From assembly GCF_004153685.1 (NCBI RefSeq), contig NZ_SDQD01000002.1:310001-374000 (forward strand): a stretch of DNA of 64,000 nucleotides. Reading direction: 5' to 3'. The notes under the pieces are model-generated. The model saw only the letters and a list, made by a program, of their open reading frames with translations, did not search any database and was not told the origin of the DNA. Shown piece by piece: positions 3,863-26,511 of the stretch. The position numbers and the translations under genes are program-made. This stretch comes from Pollutimonas harenae. GTDB lineage: Bacteria > Pseudomonadota > Gammaproteobacteria > Burkholderiales > Burkholderiaceae_B. Each line of letters begins with the position of its first letter. Position 1 is the first letter of the stretch.

Positions 3863-5613
3863 GGCTTGCCAAGACGCAGCAGACGGAAGATTTCATGGCG
3901 CTCGGGCTCTCGCTTGCCCATCCATAAAACCGTGCCGGTGCCGGAGTAGGCGGCGGTGCCATCCTCGAGGCTTTGCGGTGATGTTTGTTGCAAAACCAGC
4001 GTGCAGTCGGAGCTGTATGTGAAATTGATGCCGTTAAAGACCAGGAATGACGCCCGTTGGCCAGTGCCCAAGCCTTGTGCACGCACGCATTCGCCGGCTT
4101 GCTGATGAAGCTGCAGGGCGTTGTACAGTTGGCCGGATACGGTGCGATAGCTGCGCACATAGTCAAGAGCGGGCATCCATAAGGTAACCAGCAGCAGCCA
4201 GGTGACGATAAGCCCACCAGCCGACAAAACTGTGCCGCGCCAAAGCCCGGCGGGCTTGGTATGCAAGCGCCAGCGGACCAGTGCTGCCCAGGCCAGCGTG
4301 CCTAGCAGAGCCGCGATGACGGCCGGCCATGAAATATACACATCGTAACCGCGAGTCTGGCGAGCAATATTGTGCGAAATCTGTTCTGGCCAGCCTGTTT
4401 GCAGTGCGATCCAGCCCAGCCAGACGGTTGCCGTGGTGAGCGAAAAACACATCACGGCGAACCAGTCCAGGGAGTTCACAATCCCGCGGCGCAAGGTAGG
4501 CAGGGAAAAGGCAGCAAGAATGGCAGAGGGAACGGCCATCAGGGCATACTCAGGCTCGAACGAGTCAGCCAGGAATACGATGGCGACCAGGGGCCATACC
4601 GCAAACATCAGGGGCAGCCAGATGTGTGGTGCAGTCAGCCACGAACGCCAGCGCCATATGGCCAGCAATGCAAGAGGCCAAGTGGGCCAGATGAACCAGG
4701 GCAAGTCGCGTAGCGCCTTGAGGATTTCATGGTAATCGGGCCAGCCAAATGCGGTGGTGTTCCATAACAGCCAATTTTGTGTCCAGTATTCGCTGGTGTG
4801 CTTGGCAGGGATCCACCAGAGCAGAATCAGGGCCGCACTCAGCACCGCGCTGATCAGCAGCCATTTTTTCTGGCGCCACAGCACACTGCCGGGTATGAAG
4901 ATGAACAGCACAGCCAGCATGATGGGCAGGGAGCCTATCCACCCGCGAGTCAGGAATGCGGCAGCCAGAGCAAAACCCAGCGTGACAGAGCCCGATATCG
5001 GATGATCAAGCATGCGGGCAACTGAGTAGAAAGCCAGTGCCTGGAAGGCGATCAGGGCCGGAACCTCGGAGGTTTCGTGCATGCGCCAGATAATGCCTAC
5101 CGTGGCCACCAACAGCAGCAAGGCGGCATCGGCAATCATGCGGCCATAGGCGCGCTCGGTGGGTTCGCCGCCGAAAGGCAGGGCCAGCGGCTGTGGTTCG
5201 GGACGGCGCCCCAGCAGGTAAGTACCATACCAAACCGAAGCAGTCAGTAAGCCAAACCAAAGAAAATTGGGCAGTCGTGAGGCGATGATCGCGGCATCAA
5301 GCGGTGAAACGAACAGCTCGAAAAAGGGAGAGAACAACCAGATGCTGAAGGCACCTACCCAAGTGACCAGCGGGCCGTCCTGGGCATGTGCGAGGACTCC
5401 GATTTGGGGCAGCAACATGGCCTGGCCGCCTTCTTTCAAAGCGGTCAGCATGGTTGCCAGTCCAACCACGTCATCGGTTTTCCAGGGATCCCGGAAGAAC
5501 AGGCCCGCGAGAATATAGACCAGGCCTACGCCGAACAGGAAAAGTCGGGGCAGCTTGACGGTAGCCGTGGAAGTCAGGCGGGCAGGCGTGGATAAGGAGT
5601 CGCTGGATGACAC
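3859..5613 (-). CDS. GT39/ArnT-like integral membrane glycosyltransferase
   Basis: This 584-residue protein has about eleven membrane helices and a short soluble C-terminal domain, the layout of ArnT/PMT-type enzymes that transfer a sugar from a polyprenyl carrier. The first periplasmic loop contains RDPWKTDDVVGLATMLTAL, whose acidic pair corresponds to the catalytic aspartates of this family. A second conserved stretch is FLTRGWIGSLP. The likely product is a glycan-modified envelope component; acceptor and donor are unknown. The start is GTG at 5613 with a weak ribosome site, so the N-terminus is uncertain by a few residues. It heads a two-gene unit with the MATE exporter. Confidence 0.75.
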   Translation of the reverse strand: MSSSDSLSTPARLTSTATVKLPRLFLFGVGLVYILAGLFFRDPWKTDDVVGLATMLTALKEGGQAMLLPQIGVLAHAQDGPLVTWVGAFSIWLFSPFFELFVSPLDAAIIASRLPNFLWFGLLTASVWYGTYLLGRRPEPQPLALPFGGEPTERAYGRMIADAALLLLVATVGIIWRMHETSEVPALIAFQALAFYSVARMLDHPISGSVTLGFALAAAFLTRGWIGSLPIMLAVLFIFIPGSVLWRQKKWLLISAVLSAALILLWWIPAKHTSEYWTQNWLLWNTTAFGWPDYHEILKALRDLPWFIWPTWPLALLAIWRWRSWLTAPHIWLPLMFAVWPLVAIVFLADSFEPEYALMAVPSAILAAFSLPTLRRGIVNSLDWFAVMCFSLTTATVWLGWIALQTGWPEQISHNIARQTRGYDVYISWPAVIAALLGTLAWAALVRWRLHTKPAGLWRGTVLSAGGLIVTWLLLVTLWMPALDYVRSYRTVSGQLYNALQLHQQAGECVRAQGLGTGQRASFLVFNGINFTYSSDCTLVLQQTSPQSLEDGTAAYSGTGTVLWMGKREPERHEIFRLLRLGKP

Positions 5614-5661
5614 AGGGAGCGCACAGGTACTAAAAGTGGAAGATGGGGGTATCTTAAAGTA

Positions 5662-5687
5662 AAAAGGCAGCCTCGAGGCTGCCTTTT
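5662..5687 (-). terminator. Rho-independent terminator of rpmE2
   Basis: A perfect 13-bp inverted repeat with no spacer (A4-GGCAGCCTC mirrored by GAGGCTGCC-T4) lies 29 bases downstream of the rpmE2 stop. On the minus strand the stem is followed by a run of T. The symmetry would let it work in both directions, but no plus-strand gene ends here. Confidence 0.85.
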
Positions 5688-5715
5688 CGCGAGCGCGTGG
5701 GGAAACCTTGTCGGT

Positions 5716-5982
5716 TTACGAAGCCTTGCGCGTAGTGCCAGTGGTACGGGCAAAGCGGGCGCGGAATTTTTCAACGCGGCCGGTTTCAACGATACGGGTT
5801 TGCGCGCCGGTATAGAACGGATGCGATTCAGACGTAACGTCGCACTTGAACAAGGGGTAGGTCTTGCCGTCAAGTTCGATGGTTTCGCGGCTGTTCAGTG
5901 TAGAGCGCGAAATGAATTTGTTGCCGGTTTGCTGATCCAGAAATACCACTTCGCGGTATTCAGGGTGGATGCCTTCTTTCAT
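5716..5982 (-). CDS. rpmE2: 50S ribosomal protein L31 type B
   Basis: This 88-residue protein starts [20 protein letters not shown] and has the conserved SESHPFYTG stretch followed by a basic tail, the length and pattern of the L31 type B paralogue. It lacks the CxxC zinc ribbon of type A L31 and has a single cysteine (LFKC). In other proteobacteria this zinc-free form replaces the zinc-binding L31 when zinc is scarce; whether this copy is zinc-regulated is not visible. The start at 5982 is preferred over an upstream in-frame start at 6027, because the family begins with MKEGIHP. Confidence 0.95.
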
Positions 5983-6090
5983 GGTCGATTCCTGTGTTTT
6001 AAAGGGCGGGTCGCCAACCAGGCACAAATAATGCTGGCCACGTATCCAAGTAACCCGGCATTATAGTGGAGCGCAACTTGACACGCAAGC

Positions 6091-6768
6091 TTAAATTAGG
6101 CCCTGTTCGGCCAGCGATACGGCGCCTGTGCCGGTGACGATCAAGTGGTCGAGCAGGCGTATATCGACCAGCGCCAGGGCGCGCTTCAGGTGCCGGGTAA
6201 GAGACAGGTCGGCCTCGCTGGCTTCGGCTACACCCGAGGGATGGTTATGAGCCAGGATCAGCGCCGCAGCATGATGCTTGAGCCCTGACTTGATGATCTC
6301 GCGCGGGTAGACCGAGGCCTGACTGAGGGTACCACGAGCGACTTCTTCGCTAGTAATCAACCTGAGCTGGCTGTCCAGGTACAGGGCCATGCAGTGTTCG
6401 ACGGAAAGGTGTCCAAGCTTGGCGGCGCAGTAGTGTTTTACACGTTGAGGCTGATCGAGAGCCTGGCCAGTCTTCAGGCTTTCTTCCAGGGCACGGCGGT
6501 TCAGTTCGTTAATGGCCAGCAGTTCGCAGGTTTTGGCCATGCCCAGCCCGGGTATTCCCATCAGTGTTTGGGCGTCGGCCGACAGCAGGCCGCGCAGCCC
6601 GTCGAATTGCTCTATAAGGCGATGCCCGAGGCTGACTGCGTCACAGCCTTTGATACCGGTGCGCAAAATAATGGCCAACAGCTCGGGAGCGGTCAGTACA
6701 TGTGCACCATGAGCCAGCAGACGCTCGCGCGGGCGTTCGGATTTTGGGCCTGAACTGGACAGTGTCAT
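6091..6768 (-). CDS. radC: RadC/JAB-domain protein
   Basis: This 225-residue protein of the UPF0758/RadC family has an N-terminal helix-hairpin-helix region (TLMGIPGLGMAKTCELLAI, about residues 68-86) and a C-terminal JAB/MPN domain. The metal-binding signature is complete: E124 and H174-N175-H176 in AHNHPSG, with D187 about ten residues on. The historic link to DNA repair is weak, and the biochemical role of the family remains unsettled. It is divergent from the chemoreceptor gene. In related bacteria it lies directly divergent from fkpB, which here has been displaced 2.5 kb downstream. The first 26 codons are duplicated at 9200-9277. Confidence 0.92.
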   Translation of the reverse strand: MTLSSSGPKSERPRERLLAHGAHVLTAPELLAIILRTGIKGCDAVSLGHRLIEQFDGLRGLLSADAQTLMGIPGLGMAKTCELLAINELNRRALEESLKTGQALDQPQRVKHYCAAKLGHLSVEHCMALYLDSQLRLITSEEVARGTLSQASVYPREIIKSGLKHHAAALILAHNHPSGVAEASEADLSLTRHLKRALALVDIRLLDHLIVTGTGAVSLAEQGLI

Positions 6769-6873
6769 AAGGGACTCGAAGATAGGGGGAACAGGAACGA
6801 GCCTCTACGGTGACAGATTTTGATCTTTGTATCTGATTCAGTGCAAACTTTTGTCCGCCCTGATTCTTACTTA
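6691..6873. repeat. 183-bp direct repeat, copy A (5' radC, intergenic region, start of fkpB)
   Basis: This segment aligns without gaps, by eye, to 9200-9382. It contains the first 26 codons of radC (minus strand), the spacer and a truncated copy of the first 18 codons of fkpB. That copy starts with TTG at 6820, shares the peptide FVRPDSYL, and then runs into a stop after three unrelated codons. The radC half is functional here and the fkpB half is the dead one; copy B is the reverse. Scattered substitutions show that the duplication is not recent. Confidence 0.88.
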
Positions 6874-6958
6874 GTGCGGCTCTGAATAAGTTCCCTCGCC
6901 GTCTGCACCTGCGGATGGTCTGCTGCGTTGCCTGTGGGAAACCCTTAGGTCTTTTGCA

Positions 6959-6985
6959 TAAAGTTGGAAGATTTTCTGCCGTTAA
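6959..6985 (+). promoter_or_regulatory. Sigma-28 (FliA) type promoter of the chemoreceptor gene
   Basis: TAAAGTTG, an 11-base spacer and GCCGTTAA match the flagellar sigma-28 consensus (TAAAGTTT-N11-GCCGATAA) in all but two positions. The element is 44 bases before the ATG at 7029, which has an AAGGGG ribosome site. This placement fits a late-class chemotaxis gene. Confidence 0.75.
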
Positions 6986-7028
6986 GACAATTACAACACT
7001 TAGCCTTGACAATACATAAGGGGCAATC

Positions 7029-9155
7029 ATGGAGACAACAATCCAGGCGGGCGCAACGCGCACGCCTCGCACCGGCTGGCTGACCAGACGGTCTTTGGCC
7101 GTCAGGCTGTTCCTTGCCACGTCCGCAGTCACTGTCGTTGTAATGGTGCTTCTTGCCGGGATCATGGCTTGGCAGAGCCGCGCCAATGCCATCGTTGCCG
7201 TCGATCGCGAGATGTCGGCCGCCTTGCAGGGCGTCGACCAATCCTTGCAATTGGTGTTTGCTGATGCTAGCGAACGTGGCCGTGAACTTATCCCGGTCGT
7301 GCAAGAGGCCCTGGGTGGTGTGCCGGTCTTGGACGGCAGCATGATGGATAGCAACGAGGGCGGTGAAATTCCATTGCTGGTTGTCGAAGGTAACATCATC
7401 AATGGCGATACCGATACCTTGATGCAAATCAATGCCAGCACGGGAGCGGATCCGGCGATTATCGTCCGGCATGGCGATAAATGGGTGCGTGCAGCAACAC
7501 TGCTGCGCAATGCAGAGGGTGAGGCGAGGGTGGGCAGCACGGTGCAGGCCAATGACCTGCTGGCCCGCACGCTTGACAAGGGTGTGGCCTTTAGCGGCGT
7601 AGTGCAGCGCCAGGGCAAGTGGTACGCCATGAGCATAGAGCCGCTTAAGGACGAAGCCGGAAAGGTCTATGGTGGTTTGTCGGTGCGTGTCGATGTCGAT
7701 AAGCAAGTGCAGCAGTTGCTGACCTGGGTAGAGCAGGCCACGGTCGCCGAATACGGAACTTTGGGCGTGTTGCAACGTGCGCCGGACGGCAAGGGCTGGA
7801 TGCGGATCGCAGGGTCGCAGGGCAAGCGTGGCGGCAATCTGGCGTCGGAGGTGTCCAGCACCGACCTGGTCACGTTACAGGCGCTATACGAACAGCCTGA
7901 AGGATTTGCTCAGATTACTCTGGGCGAAGGCGACAATGCCGGTGACCAGTTCGTTGCCTGGAGCACAGTAAAGGGTTGGAATTGGCTGACGTACGGCATG
8001 GGAGATCAACATGCCTTTCTGATGCAGAGTTACAAGCAGCTGGCGTACCAGTTGGGTCTGATGCTGATCGGCACTTTGCTTATTTCTTTGCTGGTAGGCT
8101 GGCTTGCCGCCAGAACCTTGCGGCCGGTAAAGCAGGTTATCGAGGGTATGGAGCGACTGGGCCAGGGCGACTTGAGCGCCCGCATCGCCGATGCGCCGCC
8201 AGCCAGCAAGAACGAGGTTCACACCTTGTTGGCCAATTTGCGACGCACGCAGCTGAATCTGTCGCGTACGATTGCAACTGTGCGGGCCAGTGTCGAAGAG
8301 ATCAATATCGGCTCCAGCGAGATCGCCACTGGCAATAGCGATCTTTCCAGCCGTACCGAAGAGCAGGCTGCGTCCCTACAGGAAACCGCGGCCAGCATGG
8401 AGCAACTGGCCGCCACCGTCCAACAAAACACGGATCACGCACGTCAGGCTAATATTTTGGCTGCCGCCGCTTCCAGCGTTGCACAACGGGGCGAAGTCGC
8501 GGTCACCGATGTGGTTCACACCATGCAGCGTATTTCCGGCAGCTCTGGCAAGATAGGCGAGATCGTCACTGTCATAGACAGTATTGCCTTTCAAACTAAT
8601 ATTCTGGCCTTGAATGCGGCGGTTGAAGCTGCCAGGGCGGGTGAGCAGGGCAAGGGGTTTGCCGTGGTTGCCTCCGAAGTTCGCTCTCTCGCGCAGCGCA
8701 GCGCCGAGGCGGCCAAAGAGATCAAAAAGTTGATCGAAACATCTCTGTCGGAGATTGATGCTGGATCACGTCAGGTCTCCGGAGCAGGCGACACCATGCA
8801 AGAGCTGTTGTCCTCGGTTCAGCGGGTAACCGAGATCGTAAAAGAGATCGCCGCGGCATCAGAAGAGCAGTCCAGCGGCATTGATCAGGTCAATGTGGCT
8901 GTATCGCAAATGGATGAAGTGACCCAACAGAATGCGGCACTGGTGGAGCAGGCGGCCGCAGCGGCGGGATCATTGCAGGAACAGGCTCGACAGCTGGCAC
9001 AGGCCGTGGCGGTGTTCAAAATTGCCGCTAGCGCGAATGTGGTGCTCGATATACAGGACGCAGCACAGCCACAACAAGGTCAGGCCGAGGCCTACTCATC
9101 GGATCACGAGGCGGATACTCTTTCGAGCGCCAATCTGCGTCTGGCATCCACCTGA
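7029..9155 (+). CDS. Methyl-accepting chemotaxis protein
   Basis: This 708-residue transducer has a first membrane helix at about residues 28-49 and a large periplasmic sensor of the Cache_3-Cache_2 type (about 55-335, opening [19 protein letters not shown]). The second helix is at about 343-362, a HAMP linker follows, and the cytoplasmic MA domain carries the invariant hairpin tip [20 protein letters not shown] near 518-537. It relays ligand binding to CheW/CheA. No C-terminal NWETF-type pentapeptide for CheR/CheB tethering is present. Cache sensors often bind carboxylates or amino acids, but the ligand is unknown here. It is a lone gene flanked by 183-bp direct repeats, apparently inserted between radC and fkpB, and is preceded by a sigma-28-like promoter. 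Confidence 0.95.
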
Positions 9156-9199
9156 TGGCCACCGGTGTTCAGTTCGTTGGTGGCCTGTCGCCCGGGCGA

Positions 9200-9277
9200 G
9201 GTCAATATGTGGGCTCGGTGGGCCAGCAAACGCTCGCGCGGGAGTTCGGATTTTGGGCTTGCGCTGTACAGTGTCAT
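9200..9277 (-). pseudogene. Truncated radC 5' fragment
   Basis: Reading the minus strand from the ATG at 9277 gives MTLYSASPKSELPRERLLAH and then RAHILTSP. This matches the first 28 residues of the intact RadC at 6768 with a handful of changes, then diverges at 9200. No JAB domain follows. It is a by-product of the junction duplication and is not expected to make a functional protein, although the radC promoter region is duplicated with it. Confidence 0.8.
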
Positions 9278-9382
9278 AAAGGGCTCTAAAATAGGGGGAA
9301 CAGTAACGATCCTCTACGGTGACCGATTTTGACCTCCGCATCCGATTCAGTGAAAGCCTTTGTCCGCCCTGATTCCTACTTA
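9200..9382. repeat. 183-bp direct repeat, copy B (5' radC remnant, intergenic region, start of fkpB)
   Basis: This is the second copy of the radC/fkpB junction, in the same orientation and of the same length as 6691-6873. Here fkpB is intact and reads on, while radC is cut after about 26 codons. The pair brackets the chemoreceptor gene exactly, leaving about 155 bases on the left and 45 on the right. Confidence 0.88.
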
Positions 9383-9805
9383 ACCCTGCATTACCGCATC
9401 GAGCTCGTCTCGGGTCCGGCTGCCGGTTCCATTTTTGCCAACACGTTTGATGGCCGGCCAGCTACCCTGCAAATGGGGGCAGGGCAGTGGGCGCCTGGCA
9501 TGGAGCAGGTCCTGCTTGATCTCGAAGAAGGCAGCCGCCATACCTTCGAGCTACCTGCAGCGCAGGCCTACGGTGATCGCAATCCCGATCTGCTGCAGCG
9601 GGTAAGCCGGACCATGCTGACCGAGCATACCGACCCGGAAACACCTCTCGTGCCCGGCGATATGGTGGAGTTTTCTGCACCCAATGGCGGGCGCTATTCA
9701 GGAGTCTTGAAAGAGTTGGGTGAAACTTCCGCTCTATTCGACTTCAATCATCCCCTGGCAGGGGCCGACTTGCGGATCGAAGTCTCGATACTGGGGGTCC
9801 TTTAA
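9329..9805 (+). CDS. fkpB: FKBP-type peptidyl-prolyl cis-trans isomerase (SlpA/FkpB-like)
   Basis: This 158-residue single-domain FKBP has the insert-in-flap layout of SlpA. Recognisable parts are LTLHYRIEL (first strand), [21 protein letters not shown] and the active-site loop [15 protein letters not shown]. The family accelerates proline isomerisation and chaperones small cytoplasmic clients. I used the TTG at 9329 because the reading frame and the duplicated copy upstream both support it. No ATG occurs before the conserved first strand. The stop overlaps the ispH start by one base (TAATG), the usual fkpB-ispH pairing in proteobacteria. Confidence 0.88.
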
Positions 9806-10773
9806 TGTCAGTCCAGCATCCCGCTCAAGATGAGATCGAAGTCGTCCTGGCACAGCCCCGGGGTTTTTGCGCAGGCGTGGACCGTGCGATCGATATCGTT
9901 GAAAGAGCGCTCGAACTGCATGGGGCACCTATCTATGTGCGACATGAAATCGTGCATAACCGTTATGTAGTCCAGGACTTGCGTGAGAAGGGCGCCATAT
10001 TCATCGACGAGCTGAGCGAAGCACCAGCCGGCGCCATCGTGGTGTTTTCAGCCCATGGTGTAGCCAAGACGGTGCGTGCCGAGGCCGAACAGATGGGCCT
10101 CAAGGTATTTGATGCAACTTGCCCTCTGGTCACCAAGGTCCATATCGAAGTGGCCAAGATGCGTGCAGCGGGGCGCGAGATCATCATGATTGGTCATCGC
10201 GGGCATCCCGAGGTCGAAGGAACCCTGGGGCAGGCACAAGATGGCATGTATCTGGTCGAAACGCCTGAAGACGTCGCCGCCTTGCAGGTCATCGACCCGG
10301 AAAACCTGGCTTTTGTTACGCAGACCACGCTGTCGGTGGATGACGCCGCCGTCGTCGCCCAGGCCTTGCGCACACGCTTTCCTACTATTGTCGAGCCCAA
10401 GAAAAGCGATATTTGCTACGCGACGCAGAATAGGCAGGATGCCGTCAAGATCATGGCGCCTGCCTGTGATCTCGTATTGGTGGTGGGTAGTCCCAATAGC
10501 TCCAACTCCAATCGCCTGCGCGAGGTTGCCGAGCGCAAGGGCGCAGCCGCCTACCTGATCGATACCCCTGACATGATAGACCCGGCCTGGCTGCAGAACA
10601 GTAAACGAGTAGGCGTCACCGCCGGTGCTTCGGCCCCCGAAGTATTGGTCAGTCAGGTCGTAGAACGGCTGAAAGAGCTGGGTGCCGTCTCGGTGCGCAC
10701 TCTGGATGGCACTCCAGAAAACGTGGCGTTTCCGCTGCCCAAGGAATTATCCAGAAAAACCCGGGAGTCGTGA
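9805..10773 (+). CDS. ispH: 4-hydroxy-3-methylbut-2-enyl diphosphate reductase
   Basis: This 322-residue enzyme catalyses the last step of the MEP isoprenoid pathway, reducing HMBPP to IPP and DMAPP with an oxygen-sensitive iron-sulfur cluster. All three cluster cysteines are present: C22 in [11 protein letters not shown]106 in [11 protein letters not shown] and C204 in [10 protein letters not shown]. The substrate-binding signatures [15 protein letters not shown] and [12 protein letters not shown] are also intact. It is translationally coupled to fkpB, and its stop overlaps the start of maiA (TGATG). The length is normal. Confidence 0.97.
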
Positions 10774-11420
10774 TGAAACTATATGGCTATTTTCGCAGTT
10801 CGGCTGCCTATCGCGTTCGTATCGCCCTGAATCTCAAAGGGCTGGCCTACGATGCCGTATCGGTGCATTTGTTGAAAGACGGTGGCCAGCAGTTTGCCGA
10901 CGATTACCTGTCAATGAATCCGACGGCGCTAGTGCCTACGCTGCGTGATGGCACTGAAGCCATCGGGCAATCCATCGCCATTATCGAATATCTGGAAGAA
11001 ACTCATCCTTCGCCTGCATTGCTGCCGGTTGATGCTGTAGCACGCGCACGTGTGCGCGCCATTGCTCAAACCATCGCTTGCGACATCCACCCGCTGAATA
11101 ATCTGCGCGTCTTGAAGTATTTGAAGCACGACATGAAGCTCAGCGAGCAAGACAAAGATACCTGGTACAGGCATTGGATCAGTGTGGGGCTGTCTGGTAT
11201 TGAAGCCATGCTGGCCAATAGCCCCGCCACCGGACGTTTTTGCCACGGTGATCAGCCTACGCTGGCCGACCTTTGCCTGGTGCCGCAGCTGTACAACGCG
11301 CGCCGCTTCAACTGCGATGAAAGTGCATTTCCGACCATCGTTCGTATTGATGCTGCATGCGCTGAGCTCGACGCTTTCAGCTTGGCCGCACCCGAGCAGC
11401 AGCCCGACTACGTGGCCTGA
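10773..11420 (+). CDS. maiA: Maleylacetoacetate isomerase (zeta-class glutathione transferase)
   Basis: This 215-residue GST-fold protein has an N-terminal thioredoxin-like domain ([20 protein letters not shown]) and an all-helical C-terminal domain. SSAAYRVRIAL corresponds to the zeta-class SSCSxRVRIAL active-site motif, with serine in the glutathione-activating position and alanine where many members have cysteine. QTIACDIHPLNNLRVLKYL is characteristic of the class. The enzyme isomerises maleylacetoacetate to fumarylacetoacetate in tyrosine/homogentisate breakdown, or maleylpyruvate in the gentisate route. No other gene of either pathway is nearby, so the physiological substrate is open. 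ATG at 10773 was chosen over the adjacent GTG at 10770. Confidence 0.85.
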   Translation: MKLYGYFRSSAAYRVRIALNLKGLAYDAVSVHLLKDGGQQFADDYLSMNPTALVPTLRDGTEAIGQSIAIIEYLEETHPSPALLPVDAVARARVRAIAQTIACDIHPLNNLRVLKYLKHDMKLSEQDKDTWYRHWISVGLSGIEAMLANSPATGRFCHGDQPTLADLCLVPQLYNARRFNCDESAFPTIVRIDAACAELDAFSLAAPEQQPDYVA

Positions 11421-11428
11421 AAACGGGT

Positions 11429-12028
11429 CTAGCTCTTTTGCTGCAGCCAGCGCCGAATATGATCGAAGCGATCAAAGCCCCAGAAAGACTCGCCATCGAC
11501 AATCATAAAGGGTGAGCCAAATACACCACGGGCCATGGCGTCGTTCACTTCTTGTTTGAGCTGCGCCTTGATATCGTCCTGGGCGATGCCGTCCTGCAGT
11601 TCGGCGGCCGATAGTCCGACCTCTTCGGCGACAGCCAGTGTGACCTCGGTTTTGCCGATGTTTCGGCCTTCGGCAAAATAGGCGTGGTACAGGCGTTTGG
11701 CCAGCTCGGAGGCCTGACCGGCATTCTTTTTCTGCAGATATAGCACTGCACGCGCAGCGCTCACGGTGGCAATGGGGAAAGGGTCGGGCTGCTTGAAGGG
11801 AATGTTGAACAGTTCGGCTGTGCGACTCATGTCGTGCAGCGAATACTGCCCCTTGACGGGTATGTCAACCAGCGGCGCAGAACCTGTGGCCTGGAACATG
11901 GGGCCCAGCAAGATGGGATGCCACTTTACTTGCCGCTGGAATTCTGCCGCCAAAGCCTCGATTTGGGTGCTGGCGAAGTAGCCATAGGGCGATGAAAATT
12001 CAAAGTAGAAATCTATATGGTCGGCCAT
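11429..12028 (-). CDS. DsbA-family 2-hydroxychromene-2-carboxylate isomerase-like protein
   Basis: This 199-residue thioredoxin-fold protein of the kappa-GST/HCCA isomerase family opens with IDFYFEFSSPYGYFASTQIE. In it, serine replaces the CxxC of true disulfide oxidoreductases, and GVFGSPFMIVDGESFWGFDR closes the fold. Characterised members isomerise hydroxychromene carboxylate in naphthalene breakdown using glutathione. No aromatic-ring pathway is present here, so the true substrate is unknown. It is convergent with maiA, the stops being eight bases apart. Confidence 0.8.
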   Translation of the reverse strand: MADHIDFYFEFSSPYGYFASTQIEALAAEFQRQVKWHPILLGPMFQATGSAPLVDIPVKGQYSLHDMSRTAELFNIPFKQPDPFPIATVSAARAVLYLQKKNAGQASELAKRLYHAYFAEGRNIGKTEVTLAVAEEVGLSAAELQDGIAQDDIKAQLKQEVNDAMARGVFGSPFMIVDGESFWGFDRFDHIRRWLQQKS

Positions 12029-12122
12029 GGTTTGGGGCTGCCTTTTCGGGTGTTGTGACGATGTATATCGTACCGGCTTTCATGTTTAAATGACACGATC
12101 AATTTTATATGGGCATGAAGCA

Positions 12123-13574
12123 ATGAAGAAAAGTACAAGAGTGCTGGGTATAGTCGTCATTCTGGGGGTAGCCTATGTAGGGGCCAGCTGGTATGTGGGC
12201 AAGCAAGCACAGCAAACCATCGAGGCGGCCGTCGCGCAGGCCAATGAGCGCATGGCCGCAATGCTGGCAGGCGCAGCAGCAGGAGAGCTTGCGCGCAGCA
12301 CGGCAAGGCTCGACATAGACGACTACCAGCGCCGCATTTTTTCATCTGATGTCTTGTATACCTTGCGCATGAAAGATGGCGAAGGCCGTCCCATCGATAT
12401 TGCATTGACCGATCATTTGCAGCATGGCCCTTTTTCCCTGAATGCTTTGCGCGACGGGCATTTCATACCTTTGCTGGCCTACAGCAGGGCAAAGCTTGTT
12501 GCAACGCCAGCTACACAAGCCTGGGTCGATAGTCAGAAAGGCGAGTCACCGCTCCTGATCAATACTCGTGTGGGTTTTGGCGGAGCCGGGCACTCCAGCT
12601 GGAATTTCCAACCTGTAGAACTGGCTACCGAAGATGTAAAAGTCAGCTTTTCGGGCGGCACCATCGAGATGGATTTCAGCAACCATTTCAAGAACAGTAC
12701 GTCCGAGGGTCAGTTCCAGGACCTCGCTGTCAACGATGCGCAAGCCGGTGAAAGCCTGCAGGTCAAAGATCTCAAGATCACCAGCCAGACACAGGGCACG
12801 GAAGACAAGCTCACCCAGAGCCAAACTACCGCCACCATCGCCTCGCTGGTCATGGGCAGCGCCGAAGCTGAAGACGTTAGTCTCGAGCAGATACAGCTGG
12901 CCCTCGAAGGCGAGCAGTCAGGCAGTATTGTGGGTGGCTCCCTGCGCTATGATTTTGGCCGTATAGCGGTGGGTACGGCTGATCTGGGCAGTCTCTTGAT
13001 CGCCGGGCGTATACAGCAACTCAATACAGCAGCCCTGGCTGCACTGGCAACCGATTACGAAAAGATTGCCGCCAAGCATGGCGGTGAAATCGGCCAACAA
13101 GAGGCGTTAAGCCGTGAAGACAATCAATTGCTGCGCGACCGCCTGGCTGCTGTCCTGGCCTCCGACCCTTCGATAGCCATCGAGTCCTTGGTCTGGAAAA
13201 ATGCCAAGGGTGAAAGCAAGGCCAGCCTGCAGGTGAACATGTCTGCTCCTGACGACGACAGCGCACAGACTGTCGATGACTTATTCATGCAAGGTTTCAA
13301 GCAGGTCAAGTTTGATCTTGATTTGTCCAAGCCCATGTTTATTCAAGCATTCAGTCAGGCAGAAAGCCAGGCCGACAAAAAAATGCAAATGGAAATGCTG
13401 GGCGCGATGATCTACGACCAGTACGTCAACCGTTTGAAAATGGCAGGCTTGATCAAACAAGTGGGAGACGATGCAGCTGCTTCTGTTGTTTATGAACAGG
13501 GCAGTGTGAATGTGAACGGACAAGTCATGTCTGTTCCCGAGTTCATACAGCGCGTCTTCAGTGTTGCCATGTAA
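12123..13574 (+). CDS. DUF945 (YdgA-like) family protein
   Basis: This 483-residue protein has a single N-terminal hydrophobic anchor (VLGIVVILGVAYVGASWYV, about residues 7-25). A helical segment rich in alanine and glutamine follows, then a long region with repeating beta-strand patterns, as in E. coli YdgA. It is expected to sit in the inner membrane with the bulk in the periplasm. The function of the family is unknown. The ATG at 12123 gives the lysine-rich start MKKSTR typical of an anchored protein; an in-frame upstream start at 12090 would add 11 residues. It stands alone, and a stem-loop follows the stop. Confidence 0.75.
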   Translation: MKKSTRVLGIVVILGVAYVGASWYVGKQAQQTIEAAVAQANERMAAMLAGAAAGELARSTARLDIDDYQRRIFSSDVLYTLRMKDGEGRPIDIALTDHLQHGPFSLNALRDGHFIPLLAYSRAKLVATPATQAWVDSQKGESPLLINTRVGFGGAGHSSWNFQPVELATEDVKVSFSGGTIEMDFSNHFKNSTSEGQFQDLAVNDAQAGESLQVKDLKITSQTQGTEDKLTQSQTTATIASLVMGSAEAEDVSLEQIQLALEGEQSGSIVGGSLRYDFGRIAVGTADLGSLLIAGRIQQLNTAALAALATDYEKIAAKHGGEIGQQEALSREDNQLLRDRLAAVLASDPSIAIESLVWKNAKGESKASLQVNMSAPDDDSAQTVDDLFMQGFKQVKFDLDLSKPMFIQAFSQAESQADKKMQMEMLGAMIYDQYVNRLKMAGLIKQVGDDAAASVVYEQGSVNVNGQVMSVPEFIQRVFSVAM

Positions 13575-13587
13575 TGCTCAAGGAAGT

Positions 13588-13618
13588 GGGCCACGATGAT
13601 GTCAAGTCAACGTGGCCC
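13588..13618. terminator. Stem-loop between convergent genes
   Basis: GGGCCACG and CGTGGCCC form an 8-bp perfect stem with a 15-base loop, 13 bases after the DUF945 stop and 13 bases from the end of the DUF4168 gene. There is no long T run on either side, so it could be a weak terminator or an mRNA-stabilising hairpin. Confidence 0.4.
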
Positions 13619-13630
13619 TGCTGATGGCTT

Positions 13631-14014
13631 TTACTGTGCTATTTTCTGAACCCGTTTCACCAGATTCGGATCCTGCTGCAGTGATTGGTTGATGCCGTTG
13701 AACTGATCGACGGTCATGCCTTCATCGTGCACGGCCTTGACCATTTTCTGGTCGGCCTCTTCAAATATTTTTTTCTGGGTTGTTTCGTCTTTGCTGGCTT
13801 GCAGCTTAGGGGTGTATTCCTGGGAAATCATCGCTACTTTTTCCGAGGCGCTGACGAAGCGTTCCAGCTGAGCATCCGAATAGTCGGGCGTAGGTACGGT
13901 CATGGGTGCTTTGGGCTGCGGCTGTGTGGAAGGCTGCTGAGCCATCGCCACGCCACCCGTGATGCCAATGGCAAGCAGGCCGGTCGAAATCGCGGTAGTG
14001 ATCCGTTTGTGCAT
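13631..14014 (-). CDS. Secreted DUF4168 protein
   Basis: This 127-residue protein has a classical signal peptide ending at about residue 25 (VAMAQQ), a proline/glutamine-rich linker and a helical DUF4168 domain. Typical features are YSDAQLERFVSASEKVAMIS and the closing QDPNLVKRVQKIAQ. It should be exported to the periplasm; its function is unknown. A strong AAAGGAG ribosome site lies five bases before the ATG at 14014. It is monocistronic. Confidence 0.8.
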   Translation of the reverse strand: MHKRITTAISTGLLAIGITGGVAMAQQPSTQPQPKAPMTVPTPDYSDAQLERFVSASEKVAMISQEYTPKLQASKDETTQKKIFEEADQKMVKAVHDEGMTVDQFNGINQSLQQDPNLVKRVQKIAQ

Positions 14015-14534
14015 GCAATCTCCTTTCTATTGCCATGAATGAGCTTTCATCATGACAGCATTAGAGCGGAGTACAAGCGCATTCTGTCGGTAGACTTATC
14101 GAGGGGATACGATGGGTAACGACGAGCTGGTCATTTCTAGCTCATGGGTCGGAATTCGGCATATTTATTACGTTTCGGCAACATGCTCCAGGCTTATGCT
14201 CAGGGTTATGCACAGTTGATGTGGATAAGGTGGTGAGCTTGTTTTCTGGCGTGCTCAATCCCTGCGTCAATCAAATATTCGGTTTGTGCCATTGACCCAG
14301 TCGGTGTCATTGCCGGCAGTAATCTGTGTCCTTGCTGTCCATCCGGCGAGTTCGCGCACGCCCTGGCTGAAGCCGAATGCATGGGAAATCCCGTCGTAGA
14401 CGGGATCGCAGCGATTCGAGCCTCACTGGCCTGAAGCCTCTCCTGCACAGCCTCAAGAACCAGTGACCGCCCGACGCGCGTATACAGATGACCACGCATC
14501 GGCACAGTGCGCCAATGTGCATGGCAAACACTAT
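14015..14534. other. 520-bp intergenic region without a supportable gene
   Basis: I find no convincing gene here. A 99-codon minus-strand frame (14206-14505) has no recognisable family, no good ribosome site and a composition unlike its neighbours. The stretch does hold three DnaA-box-like nonamers at 14194-14228 (listed separately) and an inverted repeat around 14390-14410 (ATCCCGTC / GACGGGAT) that could act as a terminator for the gene at 14535. The rest looks featureless. Confidence 0.6.
14194..14228. promoter_or_regulatory. Cluster of DnaA-box-like nonamers
   Basis: TTATGCTCA (14194-14202, one mismatch), TTATGCACA (14206-14214, matches TTATNCACA) and TGTGGATAA (14220-14228, exact inverse of TTATCCACA) lie within 35 bases. 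The last two face each other across five bases. An AT-rich stretch lies about 30 bases to the left. No dnaA, dnaN, gidA or rpmH gene is near, so this is not evidence for the chromosomal origin. It could be a DnaA titration or regulatory site. Confidence 0.45.
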
Positions 14535-22886: not shown

Positions 22887-23882
22887 TTACTGCTTTGTAA
22901 TGTTGCGCTCTTGGATGAGTGTGCTCCAGCGTTTGCGTTCTGTTTTTTCGAAGGCTTTCAGGTCATCACCGAAAAGTGTGCCGGCCTGCGCGCCCAAAGT
23001 CACAAACTTGGCTTGCAGCTCAGGTGTGTTCAAGGCTTGTTTGGCTGCCTCTATCAGCTTGTCCTTCGCGTCTTTGGGTGTGCCTTTGGGTACGTACAAG
23101 GCAAACCAGGCGGTGACGTCCATGTTTTTAAGACCGCTTTCGGCAACGGTGGGGATGTCGGGAATGGACGGCGAGCGTTCTGCCGAAGTGATGGCAATGC
23201 CGCGAATCTTGGAACCATCTTTGACCTGGGACAGGGTGCTGGGCAGATTGTCCATCAAGATATCCACCTGGCCGCCTATGAGTGCAGGTAAAGAGCCTGA
23301 AACACCTTTGAACGGTACGTGCAGCATATCGATACCGGCGACTTGTTCCAGGTAGGCTCCCGTCAAATGTACCGATGAGCCCACGCCTGGCGAGGCATAG
23401 CTCAGTTTTTCATCGCCTGATGCTTTAGCTGCGGCGATAAGGTCATCCATGTTCTTGATCTTGGACTCTACGTTGACGGCGATGATGTTGGGTGTAGTCA
23501 TGACGAGCGCAATAGGCTCGAAATCTTGTTCGGGGTTGAAGGGCAGGTCTTTGTACAAAAACTGGTTGATGGTTTGAGTGCCTATCGTACCCATGCCGAG
23601 GGTGTAGCCGTCGGGTTTGGCTCGTGCTACGTAACCCATGCCTATGCTGCCGCCTGCACCTGCGCGATTTTCGACAACAATGGTCTGGCCCAGGCTGGCT
23701 TCCATAGCTTGAGCGATGGTACGCGCGGCGATGTCGGTGGTGCCGGCAGGTGGGTAGGGTACAACCAGAGTAACGGGATGGTCGGGAAAACCGGCGGCCT
23801 GAACGGTTGCAGCCATGGCCAGGCTAGCCAGGCCGGTACATGCATAGTGGGCCCAGGCGCTTTGAAAACGTATTTTGATCAT
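22887..23882 (-). CDS. Bug-family periplasmic solute receptor (TctC-like), first copy
   Basis: This 331-residue protein has a signal peptide ending near residue 28 (VQAAGFPDHPVTLVVPYPP) and the Bug/TctC fold. The two ligand loops are YPPAGTTDIAARTIAQAM and GYVARAKPDGYTLGMGTIGT. Bug proteins capture carboxylates such as glutamate, aspartate, nicotinate or pyroglutamate. They usually serve a TctAB-type membrane pair, which is absent from this window. The ATG at 23882 has GGAGA ten bases upstream. It lies in the operon between the gamma-glutamyltransferase and the ThDP enzyme. Confidence 0.9.
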   Translation of the reverse strand: MIKIRFQSAWAHYACTGLASLAMAATVQAAGFPDHPVTLVVPYPPAGTTDIAARTIAQAMEASLGQTIVVENRAGAGGSIGMGYVARAKPDGYTLGMGTIGTQTINQFLYKDLPFNPEQDFEPIALVMTTPNIIAVNVESKIKNMDDLIAAAKASGDEKLSYASPGVGSSVHLTGAYLEQVAGIDMLHVPFKGVSGSLPALIGGQVDILMDNLPSTLSQVKDGSKIRGIAITSAERSPSIPDIPTVAESGLKNMDVTAWFALYVPKGTPKDAKDKLIEAAKQALNTPELQAKFVTLGAQAGTLFGDDLKAFEKTERKRWSTLIQERNITKQ

Positions 23883-25542: not shown

Positions 25543-26511
25543 TTACTGGACGACTATGCCTGCGCGTTTGACCAGCGCCTCGATAATGGGCTTTTCAGTC
25601 TTGATTTGTGTGGTCAGCGCTTCGGCGGACCCATCACCCGGTTCCAGCCCCATATTCAACATCTGGTCATGAATCTTTGGGTCTTTCAGTGCGGCTTGCA
25701 GTGCCTGGCGCAAAGTGCTGGTAACGTCTGATGGTGTATTCGGTGGTGCGACCAGAGTGAACCATGCCGTGATTTCAAATCCTGGATAGCCTGCTTCGCT
25801 GATGGTGGGCAGTTTGGGCAAGGAAGATAATCGGTTTTTGCTGGTAATGGCCAGCACATCGACCTTGCCGGCGTCGACTTGAGGCATGCCTGTAGAGACC
25901 ATGTCGAAAAATACATCGACGTCCCCGTTGATCAGCTGTGGCAGCGCCTGGGTTGAGCCTTTGAAAGGCACATGCAGCATATCGATGTCTGCCACTTGCT
26001 GGAAGTATTCGGCGGCCAGGTGTGACGAGGTACCTGCGCCGAAGGATGCGACGCTGAGCGCACCGGGTTGCTTCTTGGCAAAGTTGATGACGTCCGCCAC
26101 AGACTTGAAGTCATGTTTTTTTGCGCTGAGCAGCACCATGGGGCCTATGCCTATCATGCCTATGGGCGTGAAAGCGTCAGGATCGTAGGACAGTGTTTTA
26201 AATAGATAGCGATTGGTGACCAGGGTGGAGTTGGTGGCCAGAAGTATGGTGTAGCCGTCGGGTTTTGCCCGTGCCGCATACGAGGCGCCTATGGTTGTGG
26301 CTGCTCCGGCCCGATTCTCGACGACCATGGACTGCCCCAGTGTTTTGCTCATGTGTTCTGTCAGAACCCGGGCCAGGGCGTCGGTGGCCCCGCCTGCCGG
26401 AAACGGTGTCACGACGGTGACTGCACGCTCGGGATAGTTCGCTGCTGAGGCAAGTGTGACCAGGCTGCTGAGCAAGCCTGCTGCAATGATGCGGGTGCAC
26501 GTTTTTAACAT
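25543..26511 (-). CDS. Bug-family periplasmic solute receptor (TctC-like), second copy
   Basis: This 322-residue receptor has a signal peptide ending near residue 23 (TLASAANYPERAVTVVTPFP) and the loops FPAGGATDALARVLTEHM and SYAARAKPDGYTILLATNST. It is clearly paralogous to the receptor at 22887 but well diverged, so the two probably bind different ligands or different forms of one ligand. The ATG at 26511 follows GGAGACCTC. It is the first gene of the operon, transcribed away from iclR. The receptor-first order is common where binding protein is needed in excess. Confidence 0.9.
   Translation of the reverse strand: MLKTCTRIIAAGLLSSLVTLASAANYPERAVTVVTPFPAGGATDALARVLTEHMSKTLGQSMVVENRAGAATTIGASYAARAKPDGYTILLATNSTLVTNRYLFKTLSYDPDAFTPIGMIGIGPMVLLSAKKHDFKSVADVINFAKKQPGALSVASFGAGTSSHLAAEYFQQVADIDMLHVPFKGSTQALPQLINGDVDVFFDMVSTGMPQVDAGKVDVLAITSKNRLSSLPKLPTISEAGYPGFEITAWFTLVAPPNTPSDVTSTLRQALQAALKDPKIHDQMLNMGLEPGDGSAEALTTQIKTEKPIIEALVKRAGIVVQ

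Follow-up and report, generated by a model that had tools for sequence, protein, structure and literature searches.

The window analysed here is a stretch of 64,000 nucleotides (nt) from the genome of Pollutimonas harenae (RefSeq assembly GCF_004153685.1, contig NZ_SDQD01000002.1, positions 310,001 to 374,000 of the forward strand), and our subject is a chemoreceptor gene that lies in it between two copies of the junction from which radC and fkpB diverge. On the left, an intact radC (positions 6091–6768 of the window, minus strand) encodes a RadC/UPF0758 family protein of 225 amino acids (aa) that matches PF04002 (3.1e-42) and PF20582 and scores over the cut-offs of NF000642 and TIGR00608. Its 5' end forms part of junction copy A (6691–6873), which continues through the divergent spacer into the 5' end of fkpB, of which only ~18 codons are present. 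On the right, junction copy B (9200–9382) consists of a dead radC 5' end of only ~26–30 codons, the spacer and the 5' end of the live fkpB (9329–9805, plus strand). Read from a presumed TTG start, this gene encodes an intact FKBP-type peptidyl-prolyl isomerase of 158 aa (PF00254, 4.1e-8; NF011676 below cut-off), and relatives have full-length orthologues. A preliminary description of the locus, which had radC intact beside copy A and fkpB intact beside copy B, is borne out on both counts.

The two junction copies align without gaps, with 153 of 183 positions identical (83.6%, 30 differences). This is well above chance, as had been proposed: the second-best ungapped match to copy A in the window reaches 39.3% identity. 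A repeat search widens the pair to 6672–6873 and 9181–9382 (202 nt, 82%, spacing 2509), and the only other direct repeat of at least 50 nt reported in the window is one of 93 nt elsewhere. Searching the genome itself at an E value of 0.001 gave no third junction copy, and the congener G001 has a single copy of 181 bp that is 82% identical to copy A. Because copies A and B differ by 16%, an assembly double is excluded.

The copies bracket one intact gene, its upstream region and a truncated palindromic element (6880–6931); the gene had been correctly described as the only one there, and the element had gone unmentioned. The gene (7029–9155, plus strand) encodes a methyl-accepting chemotaxis protein (MCP) of 708 aa, in which the sensor domain (Cache_3-Cache_2, PF17201, 1.4e-21), HAMP (PF00672) and the MCP signalling domain (MCPsignal, PF00015, 1e-52) are all present. 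No named receptor type was obtained, all 11 NCBIfam matches lying below cut-off. Upstream of the gene stands a sigma-28-like promoter, TAAAG-N14-GCCGTTAA (6959–6985, plus strand), recognised by eye from the sigma-28 consensus. Judged from these features, the gene presumably encodes a working chemoreceptor with its own sigma-28-like promoter. It is possible that recombination between the two repeats could delete it.

The palindromic element is the truncated half of a 167-bp form (plus strand) that resembles a miniature inverted-repeat transposable element, with 72–80% to elements in G204, G031 and G172. A whole form of 167 bp (86%) is found in the congener G003 (G003:C4:105543-105709, L189), and there are more in other genera. 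In the P. harenae genome we found no trace of it other than that at 6880–6931.

Position of the receptor gene in relatives

Gene order was read in 89 loci (L050–L138, some redundant, most spanning up to 10 kb on each side). In 12 non-redundant loci (L051, L053, L054, L056, L059, L061, L062, L065, L068, L071, L130 and L131) the receptor orthologue lies downstream of fkpB and on the same strand, following radC (reverse), fkpB, ispH, maiA, hcca (reverse, sometimes absent) and a DUF945 gene. The distance from fkpB is ~4–5 kb in most of these loci and ~7 kb in L056, where ~3.5 kb separates the DUF945 gene from the receptor. In the window the corresponding slot (13575–13630) is a spacer of 56 nt with a hairpin, running from the DUF945 gene to a DUF4168 gene. 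Upstream of the receptor, the window sequence is similar to the old DUF945–receptor spacer, including the sigma-28-like promoter, which also precedes the old-slot orthologues of G005 and G030 (all compared by eye).

Since its orthologue lies downstream of fkpB on the same strand in relatives, the receptor is, on the evidence of gene order, a displaced neighbour that has moved ~4–5 kb to the radC/fkpB junction. Its orientation is unchanged, and it is flanked by the remnants of the genes between which it now stands, a truncated fkpB before it and a truncated radC behind it. Beside the receptor no remnants of ispH, maiA, hcca or the DUF945 gene were noticed, though no separate search for them was made, and no intermediate carrying both copies was noticed in the 89 loci, each read from the best match per gene only.

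Across the family, a receptor match at an E value of 1e-150 occurs in 32 of 268 genomes. At this threshold the three congeners G001, G002 and G003 gave no match elsewhere in their genomes, and in all three the old slot is also closed, by a similar short hairpin spacer (by eye). In L064, a receptor-like stretch in two reading frames lies between maiA and hcca (13529–14277) and is possibly a decaying chemoreceptor gene.

Expanded junctions in other genomes

The hcca gene, whose normal place is downstream of maiA, is found between radC and fkpB in L052 (9287–9892). It is the only hcca of that locus, retains the usual orientation and follows a truncated fkpB start, the match of which is weak (p 0.025). 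L053, the sister of L052, has a 22-residue hcca remnant between radC and fkpB (9822–9887). This displacement of hcca in L052 supports relocation by duplication and loss.

A second fkpB start was sought by alignment against shuffles in 28 loci with a radC–fkpB gap of at least 95. Truncated fkpB starts beside radC are clear in L131, L053, L102, L051 (with the duplicate L132) and the window, and weak in L052, L056 and L059; the match in L069 is weak and out of register. The result was not significant in L064, in G002 or in any of 16 loci with gaps of 101–187 nt. The junction of the congener G002 holds ~12 kb (L033, 3346–15174) in which an apparent urease cluster was recognised by eye from the starts of the proteins, and that of G003 has ~120 nt extra, which may be the scar of such an insert. 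In L061 and L133 the gap is enlarged by short GGGGTCAGACCCC-type repeats that also occur at other places of the same locus.

Conserved boxes beside radC and fkpB

The -10-like TAAAAT of fkpB, which copy B shares with relatives, is replaced in copy A by GAAGAT (6778–6783, plus strand; site patterns and two-side comparison). In copy B it belongs to a promoter-like site, TGTACA-16-TAAAAT (9265–9292, plus strand; consensus scan), the first box of which lies within former radC coding sequence. Copy A carries two boxes on the radC side, CTACGGTGACAG (6805–6816) and TTTTGTCC (6849–6856; GGACAAAA when read towards radC). The latter is former fkpB coding sequence, 80 nt from the radC start, and we propose that it may be part of a radC control element.

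When 17 split junctions were aligned from the radC start, TTTTGTCC was found with at least 7 of 8 letters at 69–81 nt. In 10 of the 17 it is accompanied by CTACGGTGACAG with at least 9 of 12 letters, 44–45 nt away. On the fkpB side, TAAAAT is exact in 18 of 19 split junctions examined and has 5 of 6 letters in the remaining one. Junctions were called expanded by a strict rule, that no in-frame radC start lie within 60 nt of TAAAAT, which was set after a looser pass on new loci (11 expanded, 2 with the box; radC starts extrapolated). Under this rule the first set of 88 loci contains 25 expanded ones, 18 of them with the box beside radC; when the misplaced starts of L127, L096 and L107 and the duplicates L132 and L133 are omitted, a radC-side TTTTGTCC with at least 7 of 8 letters is present in 17 of 20 non-redundant expanded loci. 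Where the radC start and the TAAAAT of fkpB are at least 200 nt apart, the same holds for 10 of 11 non-redundant loci, the window included. Permuted versions of TTTTGTCC score a mean of 5.5 of 8 in the same windows, compared with 7.6 for the real motif, and 10 of 2000 permutations reach 7.6, about the number expected to be the motif itself.

The two sides of split junctions differ. In compact junctions, where TTTTGTCC is fkpB coding sequence, its mean score is 6.69 (55 loci), whereas in 17 split junctions the non-coding radC side scores 7.59 and the fkpB coding side 5.65 of 8. Over 19 loci, with the motifs chosen post hoc, TTTTGTCC scores 7.26 on the radC side and 5.79 on the fkpB side (p 0.0015), and TAAAAT scores 5.95 of 6 on the fkpB side and 3.47 on the radC side (p 5e-5); the inclusion of L058, for a total of 20 loci, brings the TTTTGTCC contrast to p 0.009. 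In the window, none of the 14 substitutions that belong to copy A itself fall in the two strict boxes (p 0.04), and the nine copy-A substitutions in the aligned stretch occupy columns that are less conserved elsewhere (0.52 versus 0.67, p 0.015, or p 0.039 when the anchor columns are left out). The column conservation of 0.97 for TTTTGTCC is too high because the motif served as the anchor, and a p of 7e-4 for "extended" stretches is circular, their limits having been drawn with the substitutions in view, and was not used.

From these comparisons we infer that a control element of radC probably overlaps the start of fkpB. With such overlapping control, the two genes could part only if the junction were duplicated and the copies then specialised.

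Other features of the window

Right after the receptor stop codon, with copy B directly next to it, lies an inverted repeat, GGCCACC...GGTGGCC (9157–9185, plus strand), found by eye and not called by the terminator scan. Consensus scans for promoters yielded one or two weak sites at each junction, a radC promoter could not be named, and Rfam gave no match up to an E value of 1 in 5500–14500. The 93-nt direct repeat (23601–23693 and 26248–26340, 74%) lies inside two minus-strand reading frames, probably of paralogous genes.

Proposed history of the locus and its alternatives

The reading that we prefer, with a probability of roughly 45%, is relocation by local duplication followed by loss, at a junction that could not simply be separated and whose copies have since specialised. 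The duplication would have run from ~26–30 codons inside radC through fkpB and on through the DUF945 gene to just beyond the receptor. The first copy would then have lost fkpB to DUF945, the deletion ending at codon 18 of fkpB, perhaps with the aid of the palindromic element, and the second copy would have lost the receptor, leaving the order junction–receptor–junction–fkpB. Comparison suggests that radC control may extend over the first 18 codons of fkpB, and fkpB control back towards radC, so that the copies would have divided these roles: copy A keeps the two boxes and has lost TAAAAT and copy B keeps TAAAAT, which would fit service to one gene each. Duplication with complementary loss yields exactly the observed order, with the broken fkpB before the receptor and the broken radC behind it.

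Several observations weigh against this reading. The old slot is empty in all four genomes of the genus examined, so that a duplication, if it took place within the lineage, must be older than the genus, the other members having since lost the receptor; otherwise the gene was regained from outside. For the same reason the empty radC–fkpB site that the preliminary description expected in relatives, and that the single-copy junction of G001 does provide, is no proof of the ancestral state, as the receptor may have been lost from G001. In its dead radC part, copy B differs from G001 at 10 of 78 sites, where 30% would be expected had that part been dead since the G000–G001 split (p 3e-4); with 12 of 52 differences, the fkpB part of copy A is in line with the expectation for decay, so that the two dead parts give different answers. 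A tree of the junction resolves nothing, the tested topologies lying within ~0.6 log units (site patterns and constrained trees). Other junctions also fit imperfectly. The gene between radC and fkpB in L102 (9221–9778) has an oppositely oriented match in L052 and L053, 5–8 kb downstream of their fkpB; some split junctions hold apparent non-neighbours, such as transporters in L051 and urease in G002 (named by eye); and L061 and L058 each seem to carry an insertion that moved radC off an intact junction. As to the boxes, five Bordetella loci and L064 are without CTACGGTGACAG, the loci are interrelated, the motif and cut-offs were chosen after the alignments had been seen, and the radC-side copies were the source of the motif. 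When the loci are pooled into 13 lineages, the TTTTGTCC contrast falls to p 0.11 (radC side better in 10, equal in 1), and that of TAAAAT stays at p 1e-4. An out-of-sample set comprised 74 further loci, of which 30 are duplicates of the first set, one (L198, the same place as L056) has no radC in the stretch and 43 are new; 6 of these 43 are expanded, with the box beside radC in 2, a fkpB side of at least 7 of 8 in 3 and neither in one (L245).

The closed slot in all four genomes of the genus also speaks for an alternative that we lean against yet consider a serious contender, namely that the genus lost the receptor and that this lineage regained a segment of the same neighbourhood from a relative near G005, by one crossover at the junction followed by trimming, in which case copies A and B would stem from two different species. 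Consistent with this, the receptor tree groups the window with G005 (bootstrap 100; two tested alternatives rejected, with p below 1e-6 in the approximately unbiased (AU) test), copy B differs from G001 at 19 sites over 6685–6873 and from copy A at 31, and the left edge of the inserted segment carries the sole trace of the palindromic element. The species data put G005 in another position yet allow the window–G005 grouping (AU p 0.16–0.18). Fourfold sites argue the other way, as they are barely more alike between the window and G005 in the receptor (139 of 308, 45%) than in 11 neighbouring genes (370 of 865, 43%); a recent transfer from the G005 lineage is thereby rejected, although the receptor tree favours that lineage. 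Moreover, the G+C content and third-position G+C of the receptor lie within the range of neighbouring genes, and the trimming by duplication and loss would still be required. Whether the segment is native or comes from a relative, both routes need duplication and trimming.

It had been proposed that the receptor arrived by insertion with duplication of the junction, on a circular molecule integrated by a single crossover. The junction is indeed doubled and the receptor does lie inside; it is the foreign circle of ~2.5 kb, carrying junction and receptor, that we consider very unlikely. The form of the direct repeats would suit it, as would a rough mosaic within them, with copy A nearer to G001 at their left end and copy B further right, but decay after duplication predicts the same mosaic, and in relatives the receptor belongs to the native neighbourhood. 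A search of 72,556 plasmid records gave no match to the junction, and the receptor protein finds only distant chemoreceptors (34–38% identity) among the 10 listed of 4193 plasmid records. Against a phage collection, segment 6600–9500 matches 12 records, of which the 10 listed match only the signalling region of the receptor (~8300–9017) and none the junction. On these plasmid and phage searches we rejected a circular incomer as the principal explanation. Site-specific integration into the 5' end of fkpB, by an element bringing a new fkpB start, is more improbable still, even though the radC-side matches to fkpB stop at +51 to +54 in six loci of five lineages (weakly in L052): conservation of the radC-side copy also ends near +51 to +54, two of the inserts are native neighbours, only the receptor gene was recognised between the repeats of the window, and no integrase or recombinase was recognised among the listed insert reading frames, which were read by eye without a family search.

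A further question, which is compatible with each of these histories, is whether the fragment beside radC is a neutral scar, that is, dead DNA kept by chance or because it is recent. In the fkpB part of copy A several substitutions are non-synonymous and C-to-T changes are numerous, a pattern that decay would produce, and the lineage-pooled TTTTGTCC contrast points in the same direction. Nevertheless we regard a neutral scar as unlikely, as TTTTGTCC is kept at its distance from radC across loci better than permuted motifs are and as substitutions in the window avoid columns conserved elsewhere. The earlier statement that fkpB is dead in copy A thus holds for the protein, and the box comparisons suggest that the fragment is probably not inert DNA. 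As far as sequence comparison can tell, the doubled junction is probably a divided control region rather than a dead scar.

Wider significance and comparison with known systems

We tentatively extend this to the Alcaligenaceae, in a proposal that we would hold at somewhat less than even odds: the radC/fkpB junction may be an indivisible unit, in which the control of each gene lies partly in the coding start of the other, that has been split by duplication in several lineages, the copies losing the signals of the other gene, and that has served as a repeated landing place for relocated neighbours (the receptor, hcca) and other operons (urease, peptide transporters). Bacterial gene order shifts, and the intermediate steps are rarely visible as their remains vanish. 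If the proposal is true, one junction shows in several relatives how divergent genes with overlapping control come apart, by duplication and complementary decay, and duplication-and-loss as an engine of gene order, which has been stated but little tested, becomes testable at one small locus. It would also caution against labelling such repeats inert insertion scars. Our literature search found no paper on a split of the radC/fkpB junction, and a query for radC with fkpB and ispH returned none.

The arrangement can be compared with several known systems. When the SXT element integrates at the 5' end of prfC it replaces that end, and the present locus is similar in having an intact gene at one end and a displaced 5' fragment at the other; it is different in that no recombinase was recognised here and some of the contents are displaced native neighbours. 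In duplication-degeneration-complementation (subfunctionalisation), each copy of a duplicated control region keeps one share of the functions. The junction copies would likewise each keep the needs of one gene and lose those of the other, but the unit here is a divergent bacterial junction without whole genes, in which the division would be enforced by the overlap of control and coding sequence. The closest published frame is the SNAP hypothesis of tandem duplication with loss (Brandis and Hughes 2020, PMC7055797), in which gene order changes by duplication of a segment followed by complementary gene loss. The selected duplications treated there span tens to hundreds of genes, whereas the unit here would be ~7 kb, is not known to include a gene under selection and has left a single copy of the receptor. 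The paper suggests seeking pseudogenes with matching active copies as the remains of old duplications, and what the present locus would share with that scheme is a duplicated segment with complementary losses from its two copies.

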